DNA from: a bacterium
Lineage (GTDB): Bacteria > Armatimonadota > Zipacnadia > Zipacnadales > UBA11051
Assembly (NCBI GenBank): GCA_021372615.1
Contig: JAJFUB010000090.1
Coordinates: 1-64,000, forward strand
Length of the DNA stretch: 64,000 nucleotides
Reading direction: 5' to 3'
Part shown: piece by piece, positions 31,759 to 48,414 of the stretch
Numbering within the stretch: the first letter of the stretch is position 1
Layout of the letters: each line of letters begins with the position of its first letter
Translations under genes and position numbers: made by a program
Notes under the pieces: model-generated
What the model saw: only the letters and a program-made list of their open reading frames with translations
The model's database searches: none
What the model was told of the DNA's origin: nothing

Positions 31759-31812
31759 TCAGATGTGCAGCCCGCCCCACAGCCGCGGCAGGCGCTGCTC
31801 GACGCGGAGCAG
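31759..31812 (-). pseudogene. Remnant C-terminus of a second DUF2961 gene
   Basis: In this 54-bp stretch 47 positions match 32457-32510, the 3-prime end of the intact DUF2961 gene. Read on the minus strand it gives LLRVEQRLPRLWGGLHI and a stop, against LLPVDQRLPRLWGGLHI in the intact gene (15 of 17 residues). No homology is seen further upstream. It lies just beyond the lepB stop, so lepB is bracketed by two copies of this tail. Confidence 0.8.
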
Positions 31813-31831
31813 CCCTGAGCGGCGCGAACGG

Positions 31832-32410
31832 CTATCGCCACGCCACTACCTTCGCCACGAGGTCGCTCACGGGGACGCAGGGCGGCGACCATAGGTGGGA
31901 GTCGTTTGAGTCGTTGCGGTTGTCTCCGAGCGCTGCCACCGTGCCAGGCGGAACCGTGACCTCACCGCTGGCGGGCCAGGTGTAGGCCATGGGTTCCTTG
32001 ATGTAGGGCTCGTCCACGGCCTGGCCGCTGCGCCACAGCCTGCCGCCACTCACCTTCAAGCGGTCACCGGGGACGCCGACGATGCGCTTGAGGAAGGGGC
32101 GAGGCGACTCGTCCGCTTTCCGCACGATGACAACATCGCCAAACTGCGGCGGATGGACCACGTAGTAGCCGCGCACGGTGATTACAGTCTGCCCTGCCCT
32201 GTACGTCGGCTCCATCGTCGCCGAGCTGACCCGGTATGAGGCCAAGCACGGCAGCGCGAACGCCGGGCGCCGCGAGACCAGAGCGGCCCCGCCGACCAGG
32301 CACGCGACGATGAACAGGCACACCACGACGGCCAGAAGGGCGTACCTGTCGCGTGGTCGGCGCGCCCGCCGCACATTCGCAGGCCCCGAACCGCCCGCGC
32401 TTCCCGCCAT
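31832..32410 (-). CDS. lepB: Signal peptidase I-like protein with Thr at the nucleophile position
   Basis: A 192-residue S26 peptidase that would remove signal peptides on the outer face of the inner membrane. One membrane helix covers about residues 23-46. Box B reads VSSATMEPTYRAGQ, so the usual S-M-x-P-T has Thr65 in place of the catalytic Ser. The general base Lys108 is present in FLKRIVGVPGDRLK, and box E is GDNRNDSNDSHLW. All else fits a normal short type I peptidase. The start at ATG 32410 has GAGGAG directly adjacent, which is too close, so a slightly later start is possible. It may be active with Thr, weak, or inactive. Confidence 0.85.
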   Translation of the reverse strand: MAGSAGGSGPANVRRARRPRDRYALLAVVVCLFIVACLVGGAALVSRRPAFALPCLASYRVSSATMEPTYRAGQTVITVRGYYVVHPPQFGDVVIVRKADESPRPFLKRIVGVPGDRLKVSGGRLWRSGQAVDEPYIKEPMAYTWPASGEVTVPPGTVAALGDNRNDSNDSHLWSPPCVPVSDLVAKVVAWR

Positions 32411-32456
32411 CTCCTCGTCCCCCGGTTCCCGAATTCCGACTCACGACTCCGGCCGT

Positions 32457-33473
32457 TCAGATATGCAGCCCGCCCCACAGCCGCGGCAGACGCTGGTCCA
32501 CCGGGAGTAGCTCCACGCAGTGCCAGTGGGGTTCGGTCTGGTACCAGTACGCGGTGCTGCTGTAGTCGTGGGCCATGTTGTTCGCGTGGCCGTGCTCGAT
32601 GTTGAACAGCAAGCTCTCCCGGAACGGGATCGGGTCCTGGATGTGGTAGCGGTACTGGCTGTGCTTGCCCGTGTAGTCGGCGTTGGTCTTGAAGTGGTAG
32701 CCGTAGTACGGGGTGCAGAAGACTTCCTTGAGGCGGTTGTAGTTCCACGCGCCGCAGAAGTAGTCCTCGGTGCCTGTGCCGTGCAGCGACGGCGGCCACT
32801 GCTCGCCGTCAATGAAGAACATGTCGTCGCCCTCGCCCCACCAGCCGGGCGTCTGGGCGTCAATGTCCAGGTGGCAGCCGACGTAGTGGCCCCGGCCCTT
32901 CGCCTCCAGGATCACGTAGTTGGTCTCGCCACCGATGTTCTGCCCCTCGGGCAGTTCCTCGGCCACACACTGCTCCCGTCGCCACTGGGCGTGGAAGCGG
33001 CCCATGTCCTCGGGCGCGCTGTCGTAGCTCTCGTAGTCCACGTAGAAGTAGTACACCGTGTCCTTCGTCTCGCACTCACTTGTGACCTCGATGCGCGCCC
33101 CGCTGGCGAAGGGCATGGGGAAGAAGCAGTTGAACGCGCGGTCCATCATCGAGAGCGCGGCGGACGAGAAGTACGTGGTGGCGGCGTGGCCGAGGCCGAA
33201 GAAGTCGCCGACGGGGCACTCGACCGACGGCCGGTCCTCGCCATCCCAGTACATGCGCAGAACGAGCTTGCGCAGATAGTCGCGCTCGCCGCAGGAGATC
33301 GTGGTCCACAGGTGGGTGAGGCAGCCGGGGCCGGCGATGTCCGCCAGCACGCGGGTCTGCCCGGGCTCGATGGTCCAGTAGTCCTTGTTGCCGCCGGTCT
33401 GGTCCCACGAGGAGGACCGCAGGGCCTTGTAGTCGCGCAGACGCGCGAGATCGCGGAGTGAGCTGCCAATCAT
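32457..33473 (-). CDS. DUF2961 / GH172-like glycosidase
   Basis: A 338-residue protein of the DUF2961 family, some members of which are GH172 enzymes acting on arabinofuranosyl or fructofuranosyl bonds. The start ATG 33473 precedes IGSSLRDLARLRDYKALRSSSWD. Typical segments are ADIAGPGCLTHLWTT, PSVECPVGDFFGLGH, FNCFFPMPF, WWGEGDDMFFIDGE, SLHGTGTEDYFCGAW and YRYHIQDPIPF. The Glu residues in GEGDD and GTGTEDYF are at positions where GH172 glutamates are expected. There is no signal peptide, so a cytoplasmic location is inferred. A remnant of a paralogue tail lies at 31759-31812. Confidence 0.88.
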   Translation of the reverse strand: MIGSSLRDLARLRDYKALRSSSWDQTGGNKDYWTIEPGQTRVLADIAGPGCLTHLWTTISCGERDYLRKLVLRMYWDGEDRPSVECPVGDFFGLGHAATTYFSSAALSMMDRAFNCFFPMPFASGARIEVTSECETKDTVYYFYVDYESYDSAPEDMGRFHAQWRREQCVAEELPEGQNIGGETNYVILEAKGRGHYVGCHLDIDAQTPGWWGEGDDMFFIDGEQWPPSLHGTGTEDYFCGAWNYNRLKEVFCTPYYGYHFKTNADYTGKHSQYRYHIQDPIPFRESLLFNIEHGHANNMAHDYSSTAYWYQTEPHWHCVELLPVDQRLPRLWGGLHI

Positions 33474-33500
33474 GTGGGGCCTCCAGTGGTCATGGCGGGC

Positions 33501-33563
33501 TGTGGGAGCGGTCACCGACCGCGACCGCGGACGCGTCGGTCGCGGTCGGTGACCGCTCCCACA
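33501..33563. repeat. Palindromic repeat (27-bp perfect arms), same family as the kinase insert
   Basis: The left arm 33501-33527 (TGTGGGAGCGGTCACCGACC...) and right arm 33537-33563 are perfect inverted copies around a 9-base loop. The arm differs from the 39013-39064 palindrome only by G/C swaps at symmetric positions. It is intergenic, between the flavin oxidase-like and DUF2961 genes. Confidence 0.92.
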
Positions 33564-33578
33564 TGGACTCGCGACCCA

Positions 33579-34013
33579 CTACAACTCCAGGCAATACGGC
33601 TCGTGTGCTTCACTCATCGCCAGCAGTTCCAGGCAGCGGGTCGTGAACTTGATGATCCCCATGTTCGGGTCGTCCACGCCGCTGTAGTACTGCTGCATGG
33701 CCGGGACGTTGTCCCACAGGAGCTGGCGGCAGTGCGCGCAGTCCACCGCCTCCGCCGTGCCCGAGAGGGTCGCCACCTGCCAGTCGTCCTCCTTGGAGAA
33801 GAGCAACTGGGCGTGGGGGTTCTGGGCGATCTGCGCCATCTTGCGCGAGCTCTTGCCGCACGCCAGGTAGAACGTCCAGGGCGCGTCCGGGTCTTCGACG
33901 ACGGCGCCCATCCAGCGCATCTGTGGCTTGCCCTCGGCGTCCACGGTGGCGAGCACATGTACATTGTGCACCGCCGCCATGACCTGCCGTACGCGATCGG
34001 GTATGTCAGACAT
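33579..34013 (-). CDS. Pyridoxamine 5-prime-phosphate oxidase-family flavoprotein
   Basis: A 144-residue split-barrel FMN/F420-type protein like general stress protein 26. The start is ATG 34013 behind GAGGTGGACACG; the longer frame to 34022 would begin with GTG or Met at a worse distance. Residues 20-60 read VHVLATVDAEGKPQMRWMGA and WTFYLACGKSSRKMAQIAQN, the usual cofactor-binding strands. PHAQLLFSKEDDWQVATLSGTAEAV follows. It is not the biosynthetic PdxH, which is longer with a distinct C-terminus. The function is probably a reductase or stress-related oxidase. Confidence 0.8.
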   Translation of the reverse strand: MSDIPDRVRQVMAAVHNVHVLATVDAEGKPQMRWMGAVVEDPDAPWTFYLACGKSSRKMAQIAQNPHAQLLFSKEDDWQVATLSGTAEAVDCAHCRQLLWDNVPAMQQYYSGVDDPNMGIIKFTTRCLELLAMSEAHEPYCLEL

Positions 34014-34053
34014 CGTGTCCACCTCGTTTCATGTTGTGGGTCGGCATTTCGCC

Positions 34054-34124
34054 GGGTGCCACGGCCAGCCCTGCTGGCCATGTTCCCAGTGCTTGCACGG
34101 CGATCGGGCCTCGCCGTGGCACCC
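34054..34124. repeat. Nested palindrome (REPIN-like)
   Basis: The outer arms GGGTGCCACGGC (34054-34065) and GCCGTGGCACCC (34113-34124) are perfect. Inside lie GGCCAGC-CCT-GCTGGCC (34063-34079) and CACGGCGA-TCGGGCC-TCGCCGTG (34096-34118). It is intergenic, between the heparinase-like stop and the flavin oxidase start. Confidence 0.85.
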
Positions 34125-34191
34125 GCCGCCTCCGTCCGCTTCCACCTGCGCACTGATGTGGTCGGCAGCAGGTAGCGTCCGGACCTCGGCC

Positions 34192-37100
34192 TCACTTCAC
34201 CCGCGGGATCTCGATGCTGTCTCCAAGGCCGTACTGCCAGAGCCGCACCGTCTTGCCCCCGTACAGCTTCTCGAGGTCGGCCTTGCTGAGGCTGTCCTGC
34301 AGCAGAATCTGACTCTTTGTGTCGCGCACGGCGCCCCTGACCTGCCGCGCGTCCTTGCCCTCCCCGAGCCAACTCCCGGCATAGAAGTCGTTCGTGACCA
34401 GGCACTTGCCCTGCGCGTCATAGCGCCCATTGGCGAAGTTCAGGAACGAGCCGATCCAGAGCATTCCCTCGGCGGCGCTGACGACGGGGCCCTCGCCCAG
34501 GTGGGCGGTCTGGTCGAGCTTCAGGCGCAGCAGCTTGCCCTCCGGCTTCGCCTCAACGAGGCGGAACATGCCGCTGCGGCGGTCATTGAAGACGCGCGCA
34601 TAGCGGCCCACCACGAAGTCGGCCTGCTGCGCCGCCGGGGCCTCGACAGTGATCTCGTTCGTCTCGTAGTCAGTCGCCACAATCTTGCCAGTCGCGTAGC
34701 CCGGGCCCTCGCCCGCCGCCGTCTCCCCGATCCGCACCTGCTTGACGGTCTTGCCGCCGGCCACGGTCGTGAAGCTCACGCCGAGGGGGCGGTGGGCGCT
34801 GGTGCGCGTCGTCGTGTCGGGCGTGGCGACGACGAGGGTGTCCACGGCGCCGTCGCGGGTCACCTCCAGTGTCAGCGGCTGCTGCGACACGAGCCGCACG
34901 GCCTGTACGACCGGCGTCTTCTGGTAGGCGTCGAGTACGCTCAGGAAGTGATCGGGCTTCGCCCCGAGGGACTGGCGGCGCACCAGCAGGTAGTCCAGCC
35001 CCCAGTCCGCCGGACGGGCCGGCGAGCGGCCGCTGCCCATGATGACCTCGGCCGGGCCGCCGACCGGGACGACACGCAGGCTGAACTGGTCGCCCTCGGG
35101 CAGGCCGTAGTCCCAGTGCCAGGTCTGCGGCTCGGCGAGTGGCGCGCGGCGGACCTTCGTCAGGTAGCACGGGAAGTTGCGCGTCTTCTCGCGGCCCCAG
35201 CGGTCGGTGTAGGTCGCGGCATGGGCCACGTCGGGGCCGGCCAGCGTGCCCCGCTCCTGGGCCTGCCAGTTCAGCGGCGGGGCCTGCAGGGGCGTCAGCG
35301 GCCCGTGCCAGCTCTGGTCGTGCTGCGAGCCGCCGTTGACGGCGAACAGGTCCACGACGTAGAAGCGCTCGGGGTCGAGTTCCACGAGCACACAGGTGCG
35401 CTCGTAGAGGTTGACGTCCCTGGCGGGCTGCGCCTTGCTCCCCTCTCCCGCTGGGAGAGGGGTAGGGGGTGAGGGGAACACATGCGGCGGGTACGGATCG
35501 TGCCGTGCCGTGACGACGTGGATGCCATCCTGCTCAGCGAAGAGGTTGCACTGCCCGCCGATGTCCGTGGGGGGCTGGGTCTCATCCACGCTCACGGTGT
35601 TGTGGGACATGATGCCGCTGTCCCAGTCGCGGTAGTCCCAGGTGTACGGGTAGCCCAGATCGGGCAGCAGGGTGACGCCCCGCGCGAACAGCTCGAGGTT
35701 CAGGTTGTCGAACTGGCGATGGCCGGGGATGCCGCTGTAGTTCAGCGACAGCGCCCGCTCCTGCCCCGGCGTCTGGCCGGTCTCGACCAGCGCCCAGCCG
35801 TAGGCGTCAAGGAGGCGGTCGCGGAGCGGAATCTGCGACTCCGGTGTGGCCAGCGCGGCCTTCAGCTCGTCTTCGGGATAGGGCTCGAACAGCTCGCCGC
35901 TGTGGAAGCGCCCGTCGGGGGCGGTGCAGGCTCGGGCGATGCGCGGGTCGTGGAAGCGCTCGAAGCCATACAGGTTCGGCGTGGTGACATACGAGTTGTA
36001 CGCTGGCTTGCGGCGCTCGGTGGGCTGGATGTTGCCGCAGTCGCCGATGGAGGGCAAGAACGTGTGGAATATCTCCAGGTCAATGTAGTAGTCGAACAGG
36101 GCCTTGCCCTTCGGGTTGCCGAACAAGTCGGGATACTTCTCCTGCGGGAAGCGGTCGGGGTGACGGCGGCGGATCTCCTCCATCAGCCGGTTGACGCGGA
36201 TGAAGTCGAACTTGATGCTGCTGTAGTTAGGGCTCTCGAAGCTGCCGCCGTCGCGCAGCAGGCCGTTGAGGATCACGTACGCCGCCCGGCCGTCGCCGTG
36301 GAAGGCGTAGTCCACCATGTCCTGGGAGTTGGGGTGTGTGTCGCTGTAGTCGTCCATGACGAGCGCGCAGGCCATCGCCGCGGCCTGGTGGAAGCCCTCA
36401 TTGCCGTGGATGAAGCCATTGAGGATGCCCTGCATGCCGACTCGCAGCAGGTTCTCCTCGATGTAGCGCCTCAGGTCCTGGCCGCTCTCGACCGGCATGC
36501 CCTTGGTCTTGAGGAAGGCGATCATCTCTGGGTCCTGGTCCATGTAGTTCCACAGCCCGTCGTAGGCGTAGGCGGTGGCTTCCAGGCAGAAGGTCTCCCA
36601 GATCAGGTCGGTGATCATCCCCCCCGTCTTCCAGGTGTAGTGCGGGTCGCGACCGCCGTACGGGCCGAAGTAGAGCCGGTCCTTGCGATCGGTGAAGTTG
36701 GGGTACTCGCTGGCCAGCCGCGCCAGCAGAATGCAGCCCTTGCGCGCGTAGCGCTTGTCGCCCGTGAGCACCCACGCCTGTGACAGTGACCGCAGGCAGG
36801 GGATCGTGTTGTTCCCGTACGCCATGTGGGCGTACTCGATCAGGAACTGGAAGGTCTTGTCGCCGACCTTGCAGCCGCTCCCGTCGTCGGGGAAGTCACC
36901 CGAGGTCATGTCCCCGTTCATGTAGTCGTTGGAGGGATACCACTCGCCGCCGGCCCGGCAGCGGACCTTGTACGGGTGGTGGATGGGGTCCGTGGTCCAG
37001 GCAGTCCAGGCGCTGTACTTGCGCACCTCCGTGCCGTGCACCGGGCACATGGCGCGCGTGTTGTGGTTGGGGAGCACGCGCGGGATCTTCGTGGTCGGCT

Positions 37101-37344
37101 GCATCAGCCAGATGAAGTCATCGGTCTGGGCGACGCAGTCGGCCGCCGAGCCGTAGTCCCGGCCGATGTAGTAGTCATTCCGGTCGCCCTTCTGCATCCG
37201 CTCCAGCAGCTTGCTCCCCCAGTCCCGCGTGGCGTTCTGCTGGCCCACGGCGAGGCGCTGGGGCGTGTAGTATGTCGGGCCATCCTTGGCGCTGACGAGT
37301 GACATCGCGACCAGACCTCCGAGCACGGCAGCAAGTGCGCGCAT
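34192..37344 (-). CDS. Secreted heparinase II/III-like polysaccharide lyase
   Basis: A 1050-residue exported protein. The start ATG 37344 follows AGGAGGTCCGCC; the signal peptide is about residues 1-19. A long alpha-helical toroid (roughly 50-580) has TGDKRYARKGCILLARLASE, GMITDLIWETFCLEA, HGNEGFHQAAAMA and DGGSFESPNYSS. It is followed by the beta-sandwich heparinase II/III domain with NYSGIPGHRQFDNLNLELFA and SGIMSHNTVSVDE. Such lyases cleave uronate-containing polysaccharides (alginate, heparin-like) in the periplasm. A palindromic repeat at 35440-35478 adds VFPSPPTPLPAGEGSKAQP to a loop. The substrate is not known. Confidence 0.82.
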   Translation of the reverse strand: MRALAAVLGGLVAMSLVSAKDGPTYYTPQRLAVGQQNATRDWGSKLLERMQKGDRNDYYIGRDYGSAADCVAQTDDFIWLMQPTTKIPRVLPNHNTRAMCPVHGTEVRKYSAWTAWTTDPIHHPYKVRCRAGGEWYPSNDYMNGDMTSGDFPDDGSGCKVGDKTFQFLIEYAHMAYGNNTIPCLRSLSQAWVLTGDKRYARKGCILLARLASEYPNFTDRKDRLYFGPYGGRDPHYTWKTGGMITDLIWETFCLEATAYAYDGLWNYMDQDPEMIAFLKTKGMPVESGQDLRRYIEENLLRVGMQGILNGFIHGNEGFHQAAAMACALVMDDYSDTHPNSQDMVDYAFHGDGRAAYVILNGLLRDGGSFESPNYSSIKFDFIRVNRLMEEIRRRHPDRFPQEKYPDLFGNPKGKALFDYYIDLEIFHTFLPSIGDCGNIQPTERRKPAYNSYVTTPNLYGFERFHDPRIARACTAPDGRFHSGELFEPYPEDELKAALATPESQIPLRDRLLDAYGWALVETGQTPGQERALSLNYSGIPGHRQFDNLNLELFARGVTLLPDLGYPYTWDYRDWDSGIMSHNTVSVDETQPPTDIGGQCNLFAEQDGIHVVTARHDPYPPHVFPSPPTPLPAGEGSKAQPARDVNLYERTCVLVELDPERFYVVDLFAVNGGSQHDQSWHGPLTPLQAPPLNWQAQERGTLAGPDVAHAATYTDRWGREKTRNFPCYLTKVRRAPLAEPQTWHWDYGLPEGDQFSLRVVPVGGPAEVIMGSGRSPARPADWGLDYLLVRRQSLGAKPDHFLSVLDAYQKTPVVQAVRLVSQQPLTLEVTRDGAVDTLVVATPDTTTRTSAHRPLGVSFTTVAGGKTVKQVRIGETAAGEGPGYATGKIVATDYETNEITVEAPAAQQADFVVGRYARVFNDRRSGMFRLVEAKPEGKLLRLKLDQTAHLGEGPVVSAAEGMLWIGSFLNFANGRYDAQGKCLVTNDFYAGSWLGEGKDARQVRGAVRDTKSQILLQDSLSKADLEKLYGGKTVRLWQYGLGDSIEIPRVK
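35440..35478. repeat. In-frame palindromic repeat in the heparinase-like gene
   Basis: A perfect hairpin CCCCTCTCCC-GCT-GGGAGAGGGG (35440-35462), followed by TAGGGGGTGAGGGG, in the style of the 24243 and 27410 elements. The minus-strand frame stays open and reads PSPPTPLPAGEGS. Confidence 0.85.
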
Positions 37345-37462
37345 GGCGGACCTCCTGGAACATCGCCACAGTGTTCCCCGCCGTGGGGACGCCCTCCTGT
37401 TTGGGGCGAGGCAGGTAGAGAGACACTGGCGGCGGAACCCCACGGGGAGGAGCGTGAGACCG

Positions 37463-38059
37463 ATGCGACGATGGCTGCTGCCGACGGCTGTGGTTGCCTC
37501 CGTGTTCAGTGGTCTGTCGTGCAAGCCGGCGGCCCAGCCGACCGGCGCCGACGACAACCGCATTCTGGCCTTGGCGCTGACCCACAAGTACGAGGATGGC
37601 GGCTACACCGTCGTCAACGGGGAGACGGGGACCGGCGTCACAGCGACAAACGACCCGAAGGAACTCGAGCAGACGAAGCAGTACGTCATCAAGCAGCTGA
37701 GGCTTCCTGGCGTGGACGTCGGGAAGCTGATGGACGCCTTTGCCGCCAAGAACCGGCGGGCAGTGAAGCTGACGTTGCCCTCGGCGCCCGAGCAGGGCTA
37801 CCTCATAGACACCGAAGGCGAATACGGCAAGTACTTCCAGCAGGACGGCGGCGGCTGGGAGCGCTGGTACAAGGAGCACCCGAAGGCGCACGGCAGCACG
37901 ACGGTATCGCTCCCTGTGTGGGACAAGGAGAGCGGGACCGTTCTGCTCTACATGGGGACGCAGTCACATTGGCTGGCCGGGGCAGGGCACCTGATCGCGT
38001 ACAAGTACGACGGCACGACGCTGCAGGAGATCGCGCGCGTCATGCTGTGGATCTCATAG
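37463..38059 (+). CDS. Putative lipoprotein of unknown function
   Basis: A 198-residue exported protein. The start ATG 37463 lies behind GGAGGAGCG. The N-terminus RRWLLPTAVVASVFSGLSC ends in a Cys that would be lipidated, although the lipobox (GLSC) is imperfect. The mature part begins KPAAQPTGADDN and carries YLIDTEGEYGKYFQQDGGGWERW and GTVLLYMGTQSHWLAGAGHL, an alpha/beta pattern I do not recognise. It lies 15 bases upstream of the FGGY kinase and is divergent from the heparinase-like gene. No function assigned. Confidence 0.65.
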   Translation: MRRWLLPTAVVASVFSGLSCKPAAQPTGADDNRILALALTHKYEDGGYTVVNGETGTGVTATNDPKELEQTKQYVIKQLRLPGVDVGKLMDAFAAKNRRAVKLTLPSAPEQGYLIDTEGEYGKYFQQDGGGWERWYKEHPKAHGSTTVSLPVWDKESGTVLLYMGTQSHWLAGAGHLIAYKYDGTTLQEIARVMLWIS

Positions 38060-38074
38060 GGAGCCGCCTGCCGG

Positions 38075-39616
38075 GTGGACACACTGCTCGCCCTTGATCT
38101 GGGTACTTCGGGCTGTCGGGCCGCGCTCTTCGGCCTCGACGGGCGCTGCCTGGCGCGGCGTCACGCCGAGTACGGCCTGCTGTCGCCTGAGCCCGGGGCG
38201 GCCGAGCAGGACCCGGAGGTCTGGTGGCAATCACTGGTCTCATGCGTCCGGGGGGCCCAGCAGGAGGCGCCTGAGGCGTACGTCCTGGCCCTGGGGGTCA
38301 GCGCCCAGGGGCACTCGTGGGCGCCCGTAGACGCACGCCTGCGGCCCCTGCGGCGGGCCCTGACATGGCTCGACGCCCGGGCCGGGGAGCAGGCGCGGGG
38401 GCTACTGGAGCGACATGGCGCCGACTTCTGGGGGCGGCTGGCCGGGAAGCTGCCCGGCCAGTGGCACATGCTGCCCCAGTTGCTGTGGCTGCGCGAGCGC
38501 GATCCGGACAGCCTCGCCGGGGCGTGGCGCTTGCTGTGCGCCCATGACTTCCTGATGGCCCGCCTGACCGGCGAGGTCGTCACTGACTACACCAATGCCG
38601 CAACGACGCTGCTCTTTGACATCGCAGGCGGGACGTGGGCCGAGGCGTTGCTCGGCGAGTACGCCGTGGACGCCGGGCTGTTGCCGGAAGTGCGACCGGC
38701 GGGGAGCCTCGCCGGGGGCCTGACAGAAGCGGCTGCGGCGGAACTGGGCTTGCCCGCAGGGACGCCTGTGGCTGTCGGCGCGCAGGACCAGAAGTGCGCC
38801 GCCCTGGCGGCTGGCCTGGCGCCGGGGACGGCGACGGCGTCGCTGGGCACCGCCACGGCGATCATCGCTCGGGCCGAGGCCCCGCGCTTCTCGCCCGAGC
38901 ATGGCGGCATACCGTGCTTCCCCTATCTGGCGCGGGGGCAGTGGGTGCTGGAGGCGCCGCTGGCGACGACCGGAGGGGCGCTGCGGTGGTTGCGCGACAC
39001 ACTGCAGTCGCCTGTGGGAGGGGTCACCGACCCCGACCGGTCGGGGTCGGTGACCCCTCCCACAAGCGACTCAGAGGTCCTGGGTGGCTATGGACAGATG
39101 ATCGCTGCCGCGGAGGCCGTGCCGCCCGGCGCTGAGGGTGTGCTCTTCTTCCCGTATCTCGCCGGCGCGGGAGCGCCGTTCTGGCGCGGCGACAGCCGTG
39201 GGGCCTTCTGCGGCCTGACGCTCGGGAGCGGCCCCGGCCACATGACCCGGGCGGTGCTGGAGGCCGCGGCCTACGATATCGCGGCGAACCTGGAGCACAT
39301 CCGGGCGTTGGGGTGCGCAGTCGAGCGCCTGGTGCTGTTCGGGGGCGGGGCGCGCAGCGCGCTGTGGCCGGAGATCATCGCCGCGGTCTGCGATGTCCCC
39401 GTGCTCGCCGGGGCGGACAGCGAGGCCGCTAGCCGCGGGGCGGCGATGCTCGCCGGAATGGCCCTCGGCGTGGACACGGCTTCGCTGAGGCTGGCCGTGG
39501 CGCCGGTGCAGACGCGCGAGGACTGGCGTGCGACATACCGACCGCTGCGGTCGGCCTTCGATCAGGCCCGCGAGGCGTACTTCGCCTTCGACGGGCGTCT
39601 GCGGGGCGTGACATGA
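38075..39616 (+). CDS. FGGY-family carbohydrate kinase (xylulokinase-like)
   Basis: A 513-residue ATP-dependent sugar kinase in the cytoplasm. The start is GTG 38075, with GGGAGCC upstream. The N-terminal phosphate motif LALDLGTSGCRAALFGLDG, the ALTWLDARAGEQA sugar-binding region, GAQDQKCAALAAGLAPGTATASLGTA and the C-terminal LVLFGGGARSALWPEIIAAV are all present. This arrangement is closest to xylulokinases, but related kinases act on many pentoses, polyols and hexuloses. A 52-bp perfect palindrome (39013-39064) is translated as VGGVTDPDRSGSVTPPT at about residue 314. It overlaps the metallophosphoesterase gene by four bases (ATGA). Confidence 0.9.
   Translation: MDTLLALDLGTSGCRAALFGLDGRCLARRHAEYGLLSPEPGAAEQDPEVWWQSLVSCVRGAQQEAPEAYVLALGVSAQGHSWAPVDARLRPLRRALTWLDARAGEQARGLLERHGADFWGRLAGKLPGQWHMLPQLLWLRERDPDSLAGAWRLLCAHDFLMARLTGEVVTDYTNAATTLLFDIAGGTWAEALLGEYAVDAGLLPEVRPAGSLAGGLTEAAAAELGLPAGTPVAVGAQDQKCAALAAGLAPGTATASLGTATAIIARAEAPRFSPEHGGIPCFPYLARGQWVLEAPLATTGGALRWLRDTLQSPVGGVTDPDRSGSVTPPTSDSEVLGGYGQMIAAAEAVPPGAEGVLFFPYLAGAGAPFWRGDSRGAFCGLTLGSGPGHMTRAVLEAAAYDIAANLEHIRALGCAVERLVLFGGGARSALWPEIIAAVCDVPVLAGADSEAASRGAAMLAGMALGVDTASLRLAVAPVQTREDWRATYRPLRSAFDQAREAYFAFDGRLRGVT
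39013..39064. repeat. 52-bp perfect palindrome inside the FGGY kinase gene
   Basis: The left arm 39013-39038 (TGTGGGAGGGGTCACCGACC...) is the exact reverse complement of 39039-39064, with no loop. It belongs to the same family as 33501-33563. The kinase frame continues without a stop. Confidence 0.95.
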
Positions 39617-40521
39617 AGATCCTGGCCATCTCTGACGTCCACCTCGACCCCGATAAGCCCGCGCCATGTCAGGACTTCATCGCCCGGGTGCAGGATGAGG
39701 AGCCGGACGTGCTGGTGGTCGCGGGGGACCTGGCGGTCGGGAAGTCCGCTGTCTATGAGACGCTCCTGGCCAGTTGCGACTTCTTCACCGGCCCGAAGCT
39801 GTTCGTGCCCGGCAACCATGACCTGTGGCAGCTCCACAGCAAGCGCGCCACGTGGCGACGATACGAGGAGGAGTTGCCGGACGCCGTCGCGACCGTGGGA
39901 TGGCAGTGCCTCGACATGGGCCCGGTGCTGCTCGACGATGTCGCCTTCGTGGGGTGCATGGGCTGGTACGACTACTCGCTGCGGCAGACGACCAGCCCGT
40001 CGGCGGAGTTGCGCGTGGCGCCCGCGCAGGTGACCGCGCCGGGGCGCAGCATGAAGACCAGCAACGCTCGCGCGAACCTGCGCTGGGAGGAATTGACGCC
40101 CGATGACTACGCCTCCAAGGCCCTGCAGGTCGGCGAGGACAACGTCATGGAGGCGGTGGTGTGGAACGACGCGTTCTACACCGACTGGGGGCGCAGCGAC
40201 GGGGAGATGACCGACTACTTCTGCGACAAGCTGCGGACGCAGGCGCGGCAGGTCGCGCGCCGCGCCAGGAAGCTCGTTGTCGTCACTCACTTTGTGCCCT
40301 TCGCCGAGACGCTGCAGGACTACAGCGAGGTGGCGCCGGCATACGCCCGGGCCTTCGCAGGCAGCGTGAAGCTCGGTCAGACGATCCAGAAGCTGCCAAA
40401 CGTCGTCGCCGCCGTCTTCGGCCATTGGCACCGCGGCGGTCAGTGGCGCCTGGGGAACCTCCGGGCCTACAACGTGTCCGCCAAGAACGGTGCGGGCGAC
40501 GGGACACTCGTACAGATCTAG
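39613..40521 (+). CDS. Calcineurin-like metallophosphoesterase
   Basis: A 302-residue cytoplasmic phosphoesterase. All dimetal motifs are present in order: ISDVHLD near residue 7, VVAGDLAV, VPGNHDLW, VTHFVPF and GHWHRGGQ. The protein looks for a phosphomonoester, phosphodiester or nucleotide substrate that the motifs do not define. It starts within the kinase stop codon (ATGA) and is followed 12 bases later by the ceramidase-like gene. Tight coupling with a sugar kinase suggests it acts on a phosphorylated metabolite of the same pathway, though that is inference. Confidence 0.88.
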   Translation: MKILAISDVHLDPDKPAPCQDFIARVQDEEPDVLVVAGDLAVGKSAVYETLLASCDFFTGPKLFVPGNHDLWQLHSKRATWRRYEEELPDAVATVGWQCLDMGPVLLDDVAFVGCMGWYDYSLRQTTSPSAELRVAPAQVTAPGRSMKTSNARANLRWEELTPDDYASKALQVGEDNVMEAVVWNDAFYTDWGRSDGEMTDYFCDKLRTQARQVARRARKLVVVTHFVPFAETLQDYSEVAPAYARAFAGSVKLGQTIQKLPNVVAAVFGHWHRGGQWRLGNLRAYNVSAKNGAGDGTLVQI

Positions 40522-40533
40522 TAGGGAGGCACT

Positions 40534-41853
40534 ATGCTGCAGATTGGTTTCGCTGAACAGGACATTACCCCCCCGCCGGGCCCGCGCATCGCCGGGCACT
40601 TCCGGGACCAGGCCGTGGAGACCGTCCACGACCCGCTGTTCGCCCGCGCGATGGCCATTACCGGGAGCGGGCCGTCGGGCGAGGAACTGACCTTCGTCCT
40701 CATCACCTGTGATGTGCTCTCCCTGCGGCGTAGCACCGTTCTCGGCGCTCGCCAGCGCATTGAGGAAGCCACCGGTGTGCCGGGCACGCGGATCACCATC
40801 AGCGCCACCCACACCCACACCGGCCCCGCCGCTGCCCGCATCTTCTGCATGGACCCCGACCCGGACTACGTGCAGTCGCTCGCAGGGCACATCGCCGCCG
40901 CCGGCATCGCGGCCCTGCAGCGCCGGCAGCCGGGCACGCTGACCGTGGCCTACGGCTTCGAGGGCAAACTGACCCAGCAGCGCCGCTTCATCATGCGCGA
41001 CGGCACGGCCCGGATGCACCCCCCCAAGGGCGGCAAGGACATCCTGTACCAGGAAGGGCCGGTGGACCCGGAGATCGCGGTACTGTGGGGCGAGGACGCC
41101 ACGGGTGCGCCGCTGGGCTGTTGGGTGAACTTCGCCTGCCATGTCAACACCGTGGGTGGCACCAACCCCATCTCCGCCGACTACCCCGGCTACCTGGCCG
41201 CGGCGATGAAGGCCCGGCAGCACGAGGGCTTTGTCACGCTGTTTGGCAACGGCTGCTGCGGGAACCTGTGCGCCATTGATGTGTATGACCCCGACCGGGA
41301 CGACCGGGGGCACGAATGGGCTCGCACAATGGGCGAGCGGCTGGCCGACGACGTGCTGCGGGCGCTGGCCGACGGGGAGAAGCTGGCCGACCCCGTGCTC
41401 GATCACCGCAGCACCGTCATTCCCATGCCCATGCGCCACGTCCCCGAGGAGCTGCTGGCGTGGGCGCGCGACTTCCTCGCCGCCGCCGACGAGAACACCT
41501 CGTTCACGGAGCGCTGCTATGCGCAGATGGCGCTCGAGATGATGGAGATGCAGCGCACGGAGCCGCTCGTGAGTGCCGAGGTGGACGCCTTCCGCCTCGG
41601 CGACTACGGCCTCGTCACGCTGCCGGGCGAGATCTTCACCGAGTTTGGCCTGGACATCAAGCTCAAGTCCCCGGCGAAGCGCACCTTTGTGGTGGAACTG
41701 GCGAACGGGATCGTGGGTTATGTACCGACAAAGCGCGCCTTCGAGGGCGGGGGCTATGAGCAGCGCACCGCGACCTCCTCGAAGCTCGATCCGGTGGCCG
41801 GGGAGATGATGGTGGCGGTGGGCCGGGCGCTGCTGGAGTCCATGTTCCGGTAG
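40534..41853 (+). CDS. Neutral/alkaline ceramidase-like (PF04734-type) protein
   Basis: A 439-residue protein matching the N-terminal catalytic domain of neutral ceramidases: IGFAEQDITPPPGPRIAGH at the start, VLITCDVLSLRR, the zinc-binding SATHTHTGPAA, FACHVNTVGGTNPISADYPG, LFGNGCCGNLCA and the C-terminal ANGIVGYVPTKRAFEGGGYE. There is no signal peptide and no C-terminal Ig-like domain, unlike secreted ceramidases, so it is probably a cytoplasmic hydrolase of other amides or sugars. AGGGAGG lies upstream of ATG 40534. In many environmental genomes such proteins cluster with sugar catabolism, as here. Confidence 0.85.
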   Translation: MLQIGFAEQDITPPPGPRIAGHFRDQAVETVHDPLFARAMAITGSGPSGEELTFVLITCDVLSLRRSTVLGARQRIEEATGVPGTRITISATHTHTGPAAARIFCMDPDPDYVQSLAGHIAAAGIAALQRRQPGTLTVAYGFEGKLTQQRRFIMRDGTARMHPPKGGKDILYQEGPVDPEIAVLWGEDATGAPLGCWVNFACHVNTVGGTNPISADYPGYLAAAMKARQHEGFVTLFGNGCCGNLCAIDVYDPDRDDRGHEWARTMGERLADDVLRALADGEKLADPVLDHRSTVIPMPMRHVPEELLAWARDFLAAADENTSFTERCYAQMALEMMEMQRTEPLVSAEVDAFRLGDYGLVTLPGEIFTEFGLDIKLKSPAKRTFVVELANGIVGYVPTKRAFEGGGYEQRTATSSKLDPVAGEMMVAVGRALLESMFR

Positions 41854-41900
41854 TATGGTGTACCGTGATTTGCTGTCACACCCCGAAAGGTGACACCCGC

Positions 41901-43178
41901 ATGAGACTGACTGTCCGCTGTCTGCTGCTGGTTGTGCTCTGTGCCTCCGTCACGCTGGCCCAGCCGCTGTTCGACTACGTGGCGGCGCCGGATGCCGCCT
42001 ACAAGTGGGAGAAGGTCAGCGAGGCCGATGGCGCGATGGGCTGCAAGATCATCACGCTCAGCCTGACCTCGCAGGTCTGGCAGGGGATCACCTGGACCCA
42101 CCAACTGGTCATCGTGCAGCCGCCGAAGCTGGACAACTGCCAGACCGCGGTGATGCTCATCAACGGCGGGAAGATGGGCGACAAGGAGCTGGCGATGCTG
42201 GCCATGCTGGCTGCGACTGTCTCCGGGCCCATCGTCTATCTGGGCGACATCCCCAACCAGCCCCTGTTCAACAACCTGCGCGAGGACGCGCTGATCGCCT
42301 ATACCTTCACGCGCTACCTGGCGACCCACGACGCGACCTGGCCGCTGCTGTACCCGATGGTCAAGTCGGCAGTGCGGGCCATGGATGCGGTGCAGGAGTA
42401 CACGCAGCAGAACTGGCCGCAACGGGTGGAGAAGTTCGTGACCACGGGCGCCTCCAAGCGCGGCTGGACCACGTGGTTCACCGGCGAGGTAGACCCGCAG
42501 CGCGTCGCCGGCATCGCCCCGATCATCTACAACAACCTCGACATGCCCGCCCAGATGGCGCTGCAGAAGTCCTCGTACGGCGTGTACAGCAGCCAGATTG
42601 ACGACTACACCGCGCTGGGGCTGCCCGACCTGCTGCAGACCGAGGAGGGGCGGGCCTTCGGGGCCATGGTGGACCCCTTCACCTACCGCGACAGGCTGAC
42701 GATGCCCAAGCTGCTGATCCACGGCACCAATGACCCGTACTGGGTGCTGGACTCCGCGAACATCTACTGGGACAAGCTGCCGGGGCCCAAGTGGGTGCTG
42801 AACCAGCCCAACATCGGCCACGGGATTGACTTCATACGGTTCCTGCCCGCCGAGGGCGCGTTCTACCTGTGCTGCGCGGGCCGGCAGCAGTTCCCTGAAC
42901 TCAACTGGCACTTCCAGCGCGACGCCGGCAGCCTGAAGCTAGGGGTCATCACGGACATCGCCCCCAAGCGTGTGGCGCAGTGGACGGCAACAGCCCCGAC
43001 ACGCGACTTCCGCCCCTCGAAGTGGGAGAGCAAGGTGCTGGAGCAGGCCGGTGGGCAGTGGCTCGCCGAGGTAGCGAAGCCACAGACCGGCTACGCGGCG
43101 CTGTTTGTCGAGGTCGTGTACGACATGGCGGGGCGCGAGGTGCCGCTGAGCACGGGGATCGAGATCATCGGGCCGTAG
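41901..43178 (+). CDS. PqaA/PhoPQ-activated pathogenicity-related esterase-like protein
   Basis: A 425-residue exported alpha/beta hydrolase; the signal peptide is RLTVRCLLLVVLCASVTLA, and ATG 41901 is preceded by AAAGGTGA. The family motif with the presumed nucleophile is VTTGASKRGWTTW (Ser in ASKRG), followed by PIIYNNLDMPAQM, KLLIHGTNDPYWVLDS (Asp) and PNIGHGIDF (His), completing a Ser-Asp-His triad. The name comes from a Salmonella gene; here it is probably an esterase or peptidase in polymer breakdown outside the cytoplasm. It lies between the ceramidase-like gene and the next secreted protein on the same strand. Confidence 0.88.
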   Translation: MRLTVRCLLLVVLCASVTLAQPLFDYVAAPDAAYKWEKVSEADGAMGCKIITLSLTSQVWQGITWTHQLVIVQPPKLDNCQTAVMLINGGKMGDKELAMLAMLAATVSGPIVYLGDIPNQPLFNNLREDALIAYTFTRYLATHDATWPLLYPMVKSAVRAMDAVQEYTQQNWPQRVEKFVTTGASKRGWTTWFTGEVDPQRVAGIAPIIYNNLDMPAQMALQKSSYGVYSSQIDDYTALGLPDLLQTEEGRAFGAMVDPFTYRDRLTMPKLLIHGTNDPYWVLDSANIYWDKLPGPKWVLNQPNIGHGIDFIRFLPAEGAFYLCCAGRQQFPELNWHFQRDAGSLKLGVITDIAPKRVAQWTATAPTRDFRPSKWESKVLEQAGGQWLAEVAKPQTGYAALFVEVVYDMAGREVPLSTGIEIIGP

Positions 43179-43197
43179 GGGCCATGAGAGGGCACAC

Positions 43198-45423
43198 ATG
43201 CGCGCGATTGCTCTGCTGGGGATCGTCCTGGCCGTCACTCCTGCCTGCGCCCACTGGGAGACGGACAACCCGGCCTTCGCGTGGGCTACGCCGGGGCAGG
43301 TGCGGTGGCTCATTGACTACTCCAAGATGGAGCAGCCGCATGTCGAGCTGATGCTCGACGCGGGCTTCACCTTCCTGCAGGGCGGCGGCTTCGCGCCCGA
43401 GGCCCTCGGGGCCGTCAAGGCGCGCCCTGGCGCGCACTCCATGCAGTACATCTGCAGCCGCACGATCTACCACGAGTTGCTCTTCCCCAAGTATCCCGAA
43501 CTGAAGGACGCCGCGATCCTCAACCCCGACGGCTCCTACAAGATCATCTACAACAACCCGAAGCGCTATGCGGGGTGCTGGAACCGTCCGGCGTGGCTGG
43601 CGTACATCAAGCGCCTGATGGACGACATCAAGGCCCGGGGCGTGGACACGATCTTCTTCGACAACCCCATGACCTGGGCGTGTTGCTGCCCGACGTGCCA
43701 GGAGCTGTTCGCGCACTTTGCCCTCGAGAAGACTGGCCAGCCGCTGAAGCTCGGGCAGTTCGGCAAGCCGAGTGAGTTGGAGAACTGGTTCACGCTCGAC
43801 ACGGCGGTGCGCTTCTGGACGCAGATCCGCGACTACGCCCACAGCCAGGGCATGTTCATCGTCGCCAACAACATGACGTACTGGCTCATCAACCAGGGCC
43901 TCACGGATGGGGTCTTCTCCGAGGGCAATGGGCACGCGCCCTTCCAACAGGACATCGCGGCCTACAAGATCGGGCTGGCGGTGTCGCACGGCAAGCCCAC
44001 CGGCATCCTCGACTATGTCCCGCTGAAGGTCATGCAGGCTCGCGGCAAGACGGCCTTCAACGCCTCTACGGGCTCGGGGGAGAAGTGGACCGGCGCGCCG
44101 ATCGCCGAGGAGTTCCAGGTGGCGTTGGCGCAGGGAGCCGCGTGCGGCGGCAACTACATCGCTAACTTCTCGCTGGAACTGGGCCGACGCATCGAGCAGA
44201 TGACCGTGCCCGAGGACCGGAAGATCGTGGAGGGGCTGAAGCTGTACAACGGCTTCCTGCAGGCGCACCCGGAGGTCTATGCGAAGGCGCAGCCCGGCTC
44301 CCCGGTGGCCGTGCTCTTCAGCCTCACCGCCGGTCCGCGTGAGGGCGAGATCCTGGGCCACAAGCGCGGTGCCTTCAACAGCATCCTGTGGGCACTGCAA
44401 CAGCAGGGGGTGCCGGCCGAGGTGATCGTCGAGGACGACCTGCAGCCGGCGCGTCTGGCGGGCCTGAAGACGGTCATCCTCAGCGACGTGACCGTCCTGG
44501 AGCCCGAAGCGGCCCGCGGGCTGGCGGGTTTCGCCAAGGCCGGTGGCACGGTGATCGTCGCCGGCGCGACGAGGGTGCGCGGGAAGTACGAGCCCTCGAC
44601 GCAGGCCCGTCCCCTCTCCAGCGTCTTCCCCGGGAGCCGCGAACTGAGCCTGTCGGTCTACCTGCCCGCCGACTTCAGCACCGATGCGGGCTATGTCGCC
44701 CAGCCGCCATGGCTGAAGGTGGACAAGGAGGTCGGCAACGCCACCGCGATGTTCCGTGGCGCGCCGGGGAAGTACCGCCTGGTGCTCTCGTACTTCGACG
44801 AGAGCGACGGGCAGGGCAGCTTCGAGCTGCTCGTGGACGGCAAGCAGGTCGGGCAGTGGCAGAACACGGCCGATGACGACACGACCCACACGCACACCGC
44901 CACGGGCGTGGCGCTCAAGACCGGCTCGCAGATCACGGTAGTGGGCCATTCGGGGGGCGGCGAGTACGGTCGCTTCGAGCGACTCGTGGTGATGGGCGAG
45001 ACCGACGGCGGGAACATCGTCGAGATGAAGGTGGGGAAGGGGAAGCTAGTGCAGGCACTGACGCCGCTGCCGCAGTTGGTGGCAGAGGACCTGGAGAAGC
45101 TGTGTGCTCCGCTCCGCCGACTGCTGCCCGTTCGCGTAGGTGCGGACGTCCCGGACGCGCCAGCTTCGCGCAAGCGCCTCCTGAACCTCACGCGCGGCAC
45201 CGACGGCGCCCTGTGCGCCCACATCGTCAACTACGACTTTCGCTACGACGACAAGCTCGCGCTGCAGAGCATCGAGCCGACGCCGGCCATGACGCTGCAG
45301 GCGCCCGGCGTCAAGCAGGCGACGCTGCTCACGCCGGAAGCAGCGCCCCAGGTGCTGCCGACCAGGAACGGCCAGATCACGGTGCCAGCGATCCGCATCT
45401 ACGGTGTCGTCGTCATGCGCTAG
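43198..45423 (+). CDS. Secreted beta-galactosidase/GH-like barrel with trimerisation (GATase-like) domain
   Basis: A 741-residue exported protein starting at ATG 43198 with a short signal peptide (ending ACA or CAH). Residues 25-330 resemble a TIM-barrel hydrolase: YIKRLMDDIKARGVDTIFFD and CCCPTCQELFAHFA, with NNMTYWLINQGLTDGVFSEG. Residues 365-470 form a GATase-like fold (VAVLFSLTAG, PAEVIVEDDLQPARLAGLKT, VIVAGATRV) like the trimerisation domain of GH42 enzymes. Residues about 480-610 look like a carbohydrate-binding module, and a small beta domain ends the protein. The active-site acids are not obvious, so catalysis is unproven. Confidence 0.7.
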   Translation: MRAIALLGIVLAVTPACAHWETDNPAFAWATPGQVRWLIDYSKMEQPHVELMLDAGFTFLQGGGFAPEALGAVKARPGAHSMQYICSRTIYHELLFPKYPELKDAAILNPDGSYKIIYNNPKRYAGCWNRPAWLAYIKRLMDDIKARGVDTIFFDNPMTWACCCPTCQELFAHFALEKTGQPLKLGQFGKPSELENWFTLDTAVRFWTQIRDYAHSQGMFIVANNMTYWLINQGLTDGVFSEGNGHAPFQQDIAAYKIGLAVSHGKPTGILDYVPLKVMQARGKTAFNASTGSGEKWTGAPIAEEFQVALAQGAACGGNYIANFSLELGRRIEQMTVPEDRKIVEGLKLYNGFLQAHPEVYAKAQPGSPVAVLFSLTAGPREGEILGHKRGAFNSILWALQQQGVPAEVIVEDDLQPARLAGLKTVILSDVTVLEPEAARGLAGFAKAGGTVIVAGATRVRGKYEPSTQARPLSSVFPGSRELSLSVYLPADFSTDAGYVAQPPWLKVDKEVGNATAMFRGAPGKYRLVLSYFDESDGQGSFELLVDGKQVGQWQNTADDDTTHTHTATGVALKTGSQITVVGHSGGGEYGRFERLVVMGETDGGNIVEMKVGKGKLVQALTPLPQLVAEDLEKLCAPLRRLLPVRVGADVPDAPASRKRLLNLTRGTDGALCAHIVNYDFRYDDKLALQSIEPTPAMTLQAPGVKQATLLTPEAAPQVLPTRNGQITVPAIRIYGVVVMR

Positions 45424-45427
45424 GGGT

Positions 45428-45506
45428 CTGTAGGACGGGGGCTTGTACCCCGCCCAGCCGTTCGGCGATCGCTGCTCGGGGCGGGGTACAAGCCCCCGCC
45501 CTACAG
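45428..45506. repeat. Palindromic repeat between convergent genes, family of 25487-25558
   Basis: 28-base arms at 45428-45455 and 45479-45506 are inverted copies with one mismatch, around a 23-base loop. The right arm begins GGGCGGGGTACAAGCCCCCG and is identical to 25531-25558. It begins 5 bp after one stop codon and ends 11 bp before the convergent one, so it may also terminate both transcripts. Confidence 0.9.
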
Positions 45507-45516
45507 CCCCGGCCCC

Positions 45517-48414
45517 TCACCTCAGCCACAACACCGCCGTCTCGCCCGGCCCCAGGCGCACCGTGATCGTGCTGCCTTCGCGATTGGTCTGCACCGGGAC
45601 CGGGCAGCCGCCGGGCACCAGCACATCTATCGCTTCCTTGACCGGCTTGCGTGAGTAGACGTGGGGCGTCACGGGGTAGTCCACGCTGCGGTTCAGCAGG
45701 AAGAGATAGCGCTCCCCGTCCTCCGTCACCCGCAGCAGGCCGCCGGTCACTTCCGCCCCCGACGCCGCCTCCACCCACTTCGGGAAGTCCATGTAGTCCT
45801 CGAGCCCCGCGAGGGACGGGATGAGCCACGCATGGCCCTGGCCCGTCGCGATGTCCTTGCCGCCACGCCGCAGGTCAGTGGTCGTGTGGTCGGCGCCCAG
45901 CGTCTTCGTCAGCAGGCCGCACGGCCGCGCCAGTTCGTCGTAGGTCCCGTTCTCGCCGATGAGGATGAGCAGCTTGCCTCTGGCCTGCGCGAAGTCCACC
46001 AGTTGCTGCTGCAGGCGGGCGGCCATGTACTTGCCCGCCGGGACGATGACGACATTGAAGTCGCTCAGCTTCGCGCGGCCGTCGAGGACGTACTCCTCGG
46101 GCAGCAGCTCGTAGCGGATGCCCCACCGGAACAGGGCGGCGTGGATGCTGAGAATCTGCGCGTAGGCGTTGGCATCCGGCCGCTCATTGCGCATCGTGGC
46201 CGAAGGCTGCAGCACCAGCGCGTGCGCCGGGGCGATGCGGCTGTGGGTCAGCACCCAGTCGAGCTGCTCCATCTTCCGCTTCGCCACCGCCAGGCCCGGC
46301 GCGCAGTAGCGCACCGTCGTCAGGTCATACTGCGGGTTGAACCAGTTGCCGTTGTACTGGAAGAGATACGAGCCGGCGGTGTAGGCGTACCACTTCATCT
46401 GCAGCGTCCGCCCCCACATGCAGCAGTCGCTGATGTGCTTCTCCAGCCCCCGGCGCTGGGCGCGCTCGTCCCACACCCGGTCCCGCTCCTCCTGGCAGCC
46501 CCAGAAGTCCTCCATGTAGCCGAGGCCCTTGTTCGCGTAGCGGTTGAGACTGCTCAGATAGACGTGTCCGAGCTGCATCTGCGGCGCGCCGCGGTGGTAG
46601 GAGAGCACGTCGCAGGTCTCGAAGAGGCGCGCCCCGTTGATCTGGTTGAGCAGCCCGCTGTGCCGCGCCACGACGGGCTTGTCCGGGTCGGCGGCCTTGA
46701 GGCTGTCGTAGATGAGCTTCAGGTACCCCAGGTAGGCTTCATCGCGGAAGGCCTCGAACTCGGCGACCAGCGGCGTGATCTCTTTGCGCCCCAGGTACGC
46801 ATCGGGTGGCGGCTGGATGGCCGCGAAGTCGGCGTAGTTGGCGCCCCACTCCTGGTTCAGAGCCGCGATCGTCTGGTACTTGCCCTGCAGGTACTGCCGG
46901 AAGGCCACCTCGCCTTGCGGGCCGTAGCCGGTCTCGCGCACGCCCTTGTCGGTGGTGAAGGTCGGGTACGCCTCCTGGTCCACCTCGTGGAAGAGCACCC
47001 GCGGCTCGCGCTTGCAGAAGGTCGCGTACTGCGTCAGGTAGTCCTTGATGTACGCCCGCACCGCCGGGTGCAGCCAGTTGAGGCTGTGATTGCCCCCGCT
47101 GCTCTTGCCCTGCAGGCCGTCCTGGGAGAGCTTGAAGAAGTCCGGCTCGCCCTTGTGCTGGTCGAGCAGCCACTGGGGCGCGTACAGGTACTCGTGCAGC
47201 CCGAAGCTCAGATAGCCGAAGGTGCCGGCATAGCCCAGTCTGGTGAGGTTGTCACAGGCCTCGGTGACATTGCTGAAGTCCACGTCGGCGGGGGTGTGGA
47301 CCTTGGGCGATCCGGGGGCGGCACTGTGGAACTCCAGGTCGAAGGGCTTCTCCCAGGCGCTGAACTGCGCGGGGCTCCAGCACCCGAACAACAGGCGGTT
47401 CATGCGCCCGTTCGGCTCGATGGCGCGGACGGACCGCTCCTGCCTCCCGAAGTGCCTGGGCAAGTTCACCTTGGCCGGGCGCAGGCTCGCAAGCTGTGCC
47501 TCGAGGTCCTTCTTCAGAGCCGCGAGTGTCCCGGAGAGTCTATCCGCGCTCGTGCTGAAGGCGGCATTGTCCGCCTCGGTCTTGCTCTTGAAGGCGGCGA
47601 TGTAGGCGCCGTACGTCGTGTTGAGTTGCTGGTCGCTGGCCTCGAAGCGCTGCCGCAGGTCGGCCGTCTGCGTCGGCTTGCCGACGTAGTAGGCACACCG
47701 CTCCACATCGCGGAGCAGGCTCTCGACGAAGGCGGACTCGAACACCAGGGCGTTGTAGCGGGTCGCCATCTGGAAGATCGTGTCATTGTCCGCCTGGTGC
47801 TTGGCGTAACGGCTGAGCGGCCCGCCGCCGATCTCCACCCCGATGGTCTGGTTGGTCCACACGTCCGCCTTCAGCTCGGAGGGCGAGCCCAGCTTCTCCA
47901 GGATCACGTTGTCGAACCACACGCGCCCGACGGCGTACTCGACCGAGAGCAGGAGCTGGGCCTGCGTGCCATCGTCAGGAGTGACGACGAGGCCGGCCCG
48001 CTGTACCCACTCCCCCAGCCGCGTGGTCTTCACCTGCGCGGGGTAGCTGCGGTTCTTGATGACCCCGCTCTTGGGGTCGCGCCAGTTAATGACCATGCCG
48101 ATGGCGCTGTCAGGCACGGCGGGGTCGTGGCGGATGTGGACGCCCAGTCGGTACACCGTCTTGGGCTCCAACGCCAGCAGCGGCGCGCACGCGAAGGCGC
48201 GGTCGCCACTGCGCACTGCCGTGATGCGCAGCGACTGGCGCCCGTGCTGGGCCGCGGTGGCGTCCAGTTCGTACTTGGACTGCGAATCGTCGGGCCACTG
48301 GGTCCAGCCCAACGCCGGCTCCTCGAAGTCCTGGTTGGCGAACCGGGCCGGCCCCTGGGCGAGCGCGCAGGCGGCGGCAAGAAGAACGACGGCCATGGGG
48401 AAGCAGAGGCGCAT
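45517..48414 (-). CDS. Large secreted GH42-like protein with N-terminal carbohydrate-binding-like domain
   Basis: A 965-residue exported protein; the start ATG 48414 follows GGAGGGATACCCC and a signal peptide ends near ALA (about residue 18). Residues 20-175 look like a CBM (ANQDFEEPALGWTQW ... VWFDNVILEKL). Residues 230-310 are helical. Residues 330-750 resemble the GH42/GH-A barrel: FHEVDQEAYPTF, EWGANYADFAAIQPP, VVARHSGLLNQINGA and GLGYMEDFWGCQEERDR, in which the Glu residues of HEVDQE and YMEDFW are the likely acid/base and nucleophile. Residues 760-880 form a GATase-like domain, and a beta domain ends the protein. Confidence 0.72.
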   Translation of the reverse strand: MRLCFPMAVVLLAAACALAQGPARFANQDFEEPALGWTQWPDDSQSKYELDATAAQHGRQSLRITAVRSGDRAFACAPLLALEPKTVYRLGVHIRHDPAVPDSAIGMVINWRDPKSGVIKNRSYPAQVKTTRLGEWVQRAGLVVTPDDGTQAQLLLSVEYAVGRVWFDNVILEKLGSPSELKADVWTNQTIGVEIGGGPLSRYAKHQADNDTIFQMATRYNALVFESAFVESLLRDVERCAYYVGKPTQTADLRQRFEASDQQLNTTYGAYIAAFKSKTEADNAAFSTSADRLSGTLAALKKDLEAQLASLRPAKVNLPRHFGRQERSVRAIEPNGRMNRLLFGCWSPAQFSAWEKPFDLEFHSAAPGSPKVHTPADVDFSNVTEACDNLTRLGYAGTFGYLSFGLHEYLYAPQWLLDQHKGEPDFFKLSQDGLQGKSSGGNHSLNWLHPAVRAYIKDYLTQYATFCKREPRVLFHEVDQEAYPTFTTDKGVRETGYGPQGEVAFRQYLQGKYQTIAALNQEWGANYADFAAIQPPPDAYLGRKEITPLVAEFEAFRDEAYLGYLKLIYDSLKAADPDKPVVARHSGLLNQINGARLFETCDVLSYHRGAPQMQLGHVYLSSLNRYANKGLGYMEDFWGCQEERDRVWDERAQRRGLEKHISDCCMWGRTLQMKWYAYTAGSYLFQYNGNWFNPQYDLTTVRYCAPGLAVAKRKMEQLDWVLTHSRIAPAHALVLQPSATMRNERPDANAYAQILSIHAALFRWGIRYELLPEEYVLDGRAKLSDFNVVIVPAGKYMAARLQQQLVDFAQARGKLLILIGENGTYDELARPCGLLTKTLGADHTTTDLRRGGKDIATGQGHAWLIPSLAGLEDYMDFPKWVEAASGAEVTGGLLRVTEDGERYLFLLNRSVDYPVTPHVYSRKPVKEAIDVLVPGGCPVPVQTNREGSTITVRLGPGETAVLWLR

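Follow-up and report, generated by a model that had tools for sequence, protein, structure and literature searches.

In-frame REP doublets of a dispersed repeat family in some twenty unrelated genes of a bacterial genome

REPINs and the head–head dimers of the GTAG class are described, in PMC3116915 and PMC3733652, as elements with a short head and a hairpin that occur in hundreds of copies and form inverted doublets, with conserved arms, a less conserved spacer, and complementary stem swaps within families, and all of these traits recur in the repeat family that we describe here. For P. fluorescens SBW25, 14 of 1,067 REP 16-mers were reported to overlap genes (PMC3116915). Intragenic REP dimers that encode 20–30 residues are on record for Opitutus terrae, Thauera, Rickettsia conorii, and others, where the hosts include genes for DNA repair and tRNA synthetases; the same source notes that the GTAG-20 units of O. 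terrae mostly have GTGG heads and contains the suggestion that heterodimers escape palindrome-cutting enzymes (PMC3733652). Another precedent is given by the Rickettsia palindromic elements (RPEs), the classic case of in-frame palindromes, with a length of about 150 bp (reviewed in PMC10969869). As intragenic REP dimers and RPEs have been published, the elements analyzed here are of a known kind (PMC3733652; PMC10969869), and intragenic REP insertions are already known from a few other bacteria, but the present family is unusual in its intragenic share and in its phase preference. It differs from GTAG-class REPINs by its GTGG head, by having no linked RAYT, and by the intragenic position of about half of its doublets. 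With the intragenic GTAG/CGTC REPs of PMC3733652, it shares the occurrence of dimers in ORFs and the DNA-repair and tRNA-synthetase hosts, whereas the sequence family and the lineage differ. As in the case of RPEs, palindromic repeats lie in frame in many unrelated ORFs and are kept as an extra peptide; however, with 48–81 bp and two REP hairpins the elements do not have the RPE length of about 150 bp, and the analogy is one of description only.

The analyzed window, a stretch of 64,000 nucleotides, contains at positions 39013–39064 a 52-bp palindrome (TGTGGGAGGGGTCACCGACCCCGACCG / CGGTCGGGGTCGGTGACCCCTCCCACA) that had been noticed in the initial annotation, and its perfection, with a spacer of 0 and 0 mismatches, was confirmed. 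It is an inverted doublet of two REP units (a REPIN or head–head REP dimer) from a family of more than 300 dispersed half-units (Table 1). The annotation was also right in reading the palindrome as a translated part of a sugar kinase to which it adds about 17 residues, as the palindrome lies in frame within the 513-aa ORF of an FGGY kinase (FGGY_N, 2.8e-50; FGGY_C, 4.8e-31) and corresponds to residues 314–330. At this position, 19–21 residues are absent in eight kinase orthologues of the same clade (49–56% identity). A structural comparison had been proposed, and the alignment with xylulokinase structures indeed places the insert in the connector between the helix that ends with WLRDTL and the helix that begins with YGQMIAAA, with well-aligned kinase sequence and motifs on both sides; the AlphaFold model of the kinase alone had a pLDDT of 36.6, which is too low for use. 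The kinase has probably remained active despite the insert, which is itself probably without function. The presumed relation by copying to the intergenic element at 33501–33563, which has perfect 27-nt arms, was borne out; both are doublets of the same GTGGGAG family. What proved too narrow was the idea of an insertion specific to the kinase, since this copy belongs to a genome-wide REP family with about 23 intragenic doublets. The palindrome in the kinase gene may possibly be recent or protected, as had been supposed. An Rfam search of positions 30000–46000 gave no matches.

Table 1. Positions of the kinase gene, its REP doublet, and the related doublet in the window.
Feature	Position	Strand	Details
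Gene of an FGGY-family carbohydrate kinase (513 aa) that hosts the insert	38075..39616	+	Pfam match; orthologue and structure alignments; high gene-finder score to the left and right of the insert
Inverted REP doublet (REPIN-like), perfect palindrome	39013..39064		Core of 50 bp at 39014-39063; codes for residues 314-330 of the kinase, VGGVTDPDRSGSVTPPT
Left REP unit, G type	39014..39036	+	GTGGGAG head; stem 39020-39025 / 39029-39034; loop ACC 39026-39028
Centre CCGG, 4 nt	39037..39040		Varies between copies, arms conserved
Right REP unit, G type, inverted	39041..39063	-	Matches the half-site pattern
Outer extension of the palindrome	39006..39071		AGTCGC / GCGACT immediately outside the doublet
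Second doublet of the GTGGGAG REP family, C/C type	33501..33563		Spacer of 9 nt; flanked by two genes of the - strand

Half of the palindrome reads GTGGGAGSGGTCACCGACCSCGA and follows the pattern GTGGGAG-SGGTC-ACC-GACCS-CGA, that is, a GTGGGAG head and then a hairpin with a 6-bp stem and the 3-nt loop ACC. Within the window, a 20-nt half-site pattern has 4 matches, compared with 0.07 in shuffled sequences, and a search of the 6.4-Mb genome with the first 21 bases of the half-site and at most 2 mismatches detected 312 half-sites (165 + 147), compared with 0 for the reversed-pattern control. Genome-wide, 40 doublets with exact arms have their units face to face, and the 50-bp form with the 4-nt centre accounts for 18 copies at up to 3 mismatches. 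The arms have a mean identity of 93% with both arm types mixed, and the centres vary in sequence and length. The statistics on GTGGGAG arms and doublets given below are based on a region-by-region sample of 191 arms and 45 doublets.

The possibility had to be considered that such a palindrome is a product of assembly or library preparation. The genome is a draft of 171 contigs, and perfect palindromes are classic products of fold-back chimerism. However, fold-back arms are specific to their locus, and the arms seen here are shared by 90 sampled sites that differ in their flanks, which makes an artefact very unlikely; moreover, the homology of the kinase ORF continues on both sides of the palindrome. 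Regarding the stability of palindromes, the best and only SbcD-like match in the genome scores 22.6 bits at a cut-off of 77.65 (contig C29 of genome G000, 94857–95306, L287), so that SbcCD, which cuts palindromes, may have diverged in this genome or be absent from it. As the relatives are also below the cut-off, with 40–66 bits in most of those from the same order, the weak SbcD score can only be regarded as a lead.

The initial annotation had taken the G/C swaps between the kinase copy and the intergenic copy as showing that pairing along the long palindrome is under selection or is restored by copying. The kinase copy is of the G/G type and the copy at 33501 of the C/C type, and therefore the swaps appear to compensate each other from arm to arm. 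The inference of selection on the long pairing does not hold, because the compensation takes place inside the hairpin of each single arm: within an arm, position 8 co-varies with position 20 (C-G in 153, G-C in 32, wobble in 3, and broken in 3 of 191 sampled arms), and the own-arm pairing is thus kept in 188/191 arms, while 16 of the 45 doublets have a mismatch in the long stem, with the C-type arm opposite a G-type arm in 15 of them and opposite a T-type arm in 1, and cross-arm pairing is intact in only 29. The pairing that is conserved is the small hairpin of the REP unit itself. A selection on the long perfect palindrome was suggested by that annotation; it might act on a cruciform or on an mRNA hairpin with a function, for instance, and would agree with the very stable predicted fold (RNA −55.3 kcal/mol, DNA −33.8 kcal/mol, z about −9), but with cross-arm pairing broken in more than a third of the doublets, differing centres, and a within-arm hairpin that is nearly always kept, we consider it highly improbable. 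More generally, 'compensatory' changes in REP doublets should first be read within each unit.

The outer palindrome at 39006–39071 extends the kinase doublet to 66 bp with one mismatched pair (39012/39065), and inverted repeats are found in the flanks of three doublets in total (7/8, 7/8, and 12/14 complementary positions; window 39006–39071, L119, and L110), which look as if they had been inserted into pre-existing palindromes. Over all copies, the complementarity of flanks outside the doublet is not significant, and a palindromic target as a general rule was therefore rejected. No direct repeats were evident by eye in the flanks of intragenic copies.

The comparison with orthologues establishes, on the level of sequence, that the doublets have been inserted into genes and have persisted there in frame. 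At all 16 intragenic sites that could be aligned, the insert is absent from the orthologues, with flanks aligned on both sides and up to six related genomes compared. The net length of the inserts ranges from +6 to +44 aa across sites, a range affected by loop divergence; the closest orthologues are about 55% identical. Some twenty unrelated genes carry a copy of the family in frame, and each of them has gained a short linker-like peptide. Hosts include mutS, mutS2, the valyl-tRNA synthetase gene valS, and genes for two URO-D-like proteins, a sulfatase, a transporter permease, a GFO/IDH oxidoreductase, a carbon-nitrogen hydrolase, a GH106 enzyme, and a ceramidase-like protein (+16 to +18 aa; the label is ours, as no Pfam match was obtained at 1e-5). 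In the case of mutS, 20 aa are added next to domain V relative to 5/5 orthologues, and the insert is also absent from E. coli MutS structures. Both MutS paralogues, mutS (L097) and mutS2 (L120), host translated REP inserts, and mutS has two separate ones. It could be argued that the hosts are decaying pseudogenes that accept any insertion, as many of them belong to carbohydrate metabolism and could be dispensable. However, mutS, mutS2, and valS are among the hosts, the frames are intact with a strong coding signal on both sides, and no intragenic doublet belongs to the length class that would force a stop in the favored phase, and we give this explanation a very low probability. A mobile repeat routinely becomes part of proteins in a single uncharacterised bacterial genome, in copies that suffice to measure rules for phase, length class, and arm type. 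The matched set of insertions lends itself to tests of how proteins gain loops from small mobile DNA and of how REP doublets select coding regions or survive there.

According to gene calls by a simple Markov coding model that was trained on the window, with confirmation by homology at 16 sites only, 23/45 doublets lie inside predicted genes with a coding signal that continues on both sides, and the same model gives a coding fraction of about 0.915 for the genome. The family is thus not mainly extragenic as is usual for REPs and REPINs; this location is a descriptive rather than a defining trait, because the literature allows intragenic REPs. The genome does not accept just any REP in genes this often, as a control REP family (GTAGGRCGGGGGCTTGTACCCCGCCC) with 135 half-sites in this genome lies mostly between genes, with about 14 doublets there and 2 inside genes. 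A doublet of this control family is also present in the window, at 45424–45510 between convergent genes (GTAGG[A/G]CGGGGGCTTGTACCCCGCCC, 23-nt spacer). In the GTGGGAG family, the dominant reading phase starts with VG[G/A]VTD[P/R] and ends with SVT[A/P]PT or VGD[R/P]SH, the full phase-0 peptide being VG[G/A]VTD[P/R]D..S[G/R]SVT[P/A]PT, and phase 0 is used by 19 of the 22 elements that have two open phases. A length of 1 mod 3, which would place a stop in the right arm when read in phase 0, is found in 0/23 intragenic and in 8/22 intergenic doublets (p = 0.0015). The arm types are unevenly distributed as well: doublets with a G-type arm are intragenic in 15 and intergenic in 2 cases, whereas C/C doublets, with which the single C/T doublet was grouped, are intragenic in 8 and intergenic in 20 cases (Fisher p = 1.5e-4). 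In the main text of PMC3733652, we found neither the use of a single phase nor the split into intragenic C/G and intergenic C/C doublets described.

Survival is the most likely reason for the preferred phase: the peptide read in phase 0 contains many small, turn-forming residues and agrees with the codon bias. One may go further and assume a gene-adapted coding subfamily of 50 bp with a G-type arm on at least one side; its sequence would be selected for harmless translation, and it would insert or persist in ORFs in preference to intergenic regions. The arm-type distribution and the shared phase speak for this, as do the mostly intergenic control family and the consideration that random insertion into a genome of this coding fraction, followed by the loss of frame-breakers, should leave an intergenic share above 2/17. 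On the other hand, the numbers are small, a recent burst of one subfamily together with purifying selection gives much the same pattern, and phase 0 is also the phase in which GC is high at codon position 3, as is usual, so that selection against odd peptides alone may suffice; we therefore regard the idea as possible but rather unlikely. Slightly less likely still is the full version of it, a doublet subfamily adapted to coding genes by heterodimeric arms, a fixed length of 50 bp, and a sequence that on either strand has one phase which translates into a harmless linker. If this were true, the subfamily would spread through ORFs, including those of mismatch-repair and tRNA-synthetase genes, no less freely than through intergenic regions.

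We consider it very probable that the elements are dispersed REP doublets that persist in frame as linker-like loops. As has been proposed for REPINs, the doublets would spread as single-stranded hairpin DNA that is handled by an HUH/Y1 transposase, either a RAYT or an IS200-like TnpA, and by this analogy we infer a transposase as the mover. After landing in a gene, only frame-open copies in a tolerant surface loop would persist, and the mild phase-0 sequence would then provide the host protein with a flexible linker, which in the kinase would lengthen the connector between the WLRDTL and YGQMIAAA helices. The genome contains seven Y1_Tnp genes, four of which (contigs C154, C125, C160, and C146) are REP_Tyr_transpos-like below the NCBIfam cut-off, and no GTGGGAG repeat lies within about 1.5 kb of any of the seven. 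As no cognate RAYT flanked by the GTGGGAG REP was found, we classify the elements as a REP-doublet family rather than as a demonstrated RAYT system. Y1 transposase genes at L026 1175–1935 and L031 2121–2145 lie near other REP families (GTAGCCGTGGGC... and GTAGCCACGGGC...), and several REP families therefore coexist in the genome.

Beyond this genome, exact matches among the named genomes scanned were limited to two single ones, in unrelated Omnitrophota and Nitriliruptoraceae. Related units occur in a sister genus, in genome G001 of the same family, as GTGGGAGGGGTCTCCGACCCC with the loop TCC; they are mostly single rather than doublets, and some of them are in frame and read VGGVSDPD. The distant genome G046 has the related unit GTAGGAGGGGTYTCCGACCCC, which is mostly GTAG-headed and in our sample always intergenic. 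In the genome with the kinase doublet, nine direct tandem units of the GTGGGAG family are found between two genes, mostly at a spacing of ~53 bp (L133 2473–2812, contig C21 about 7900–8240).
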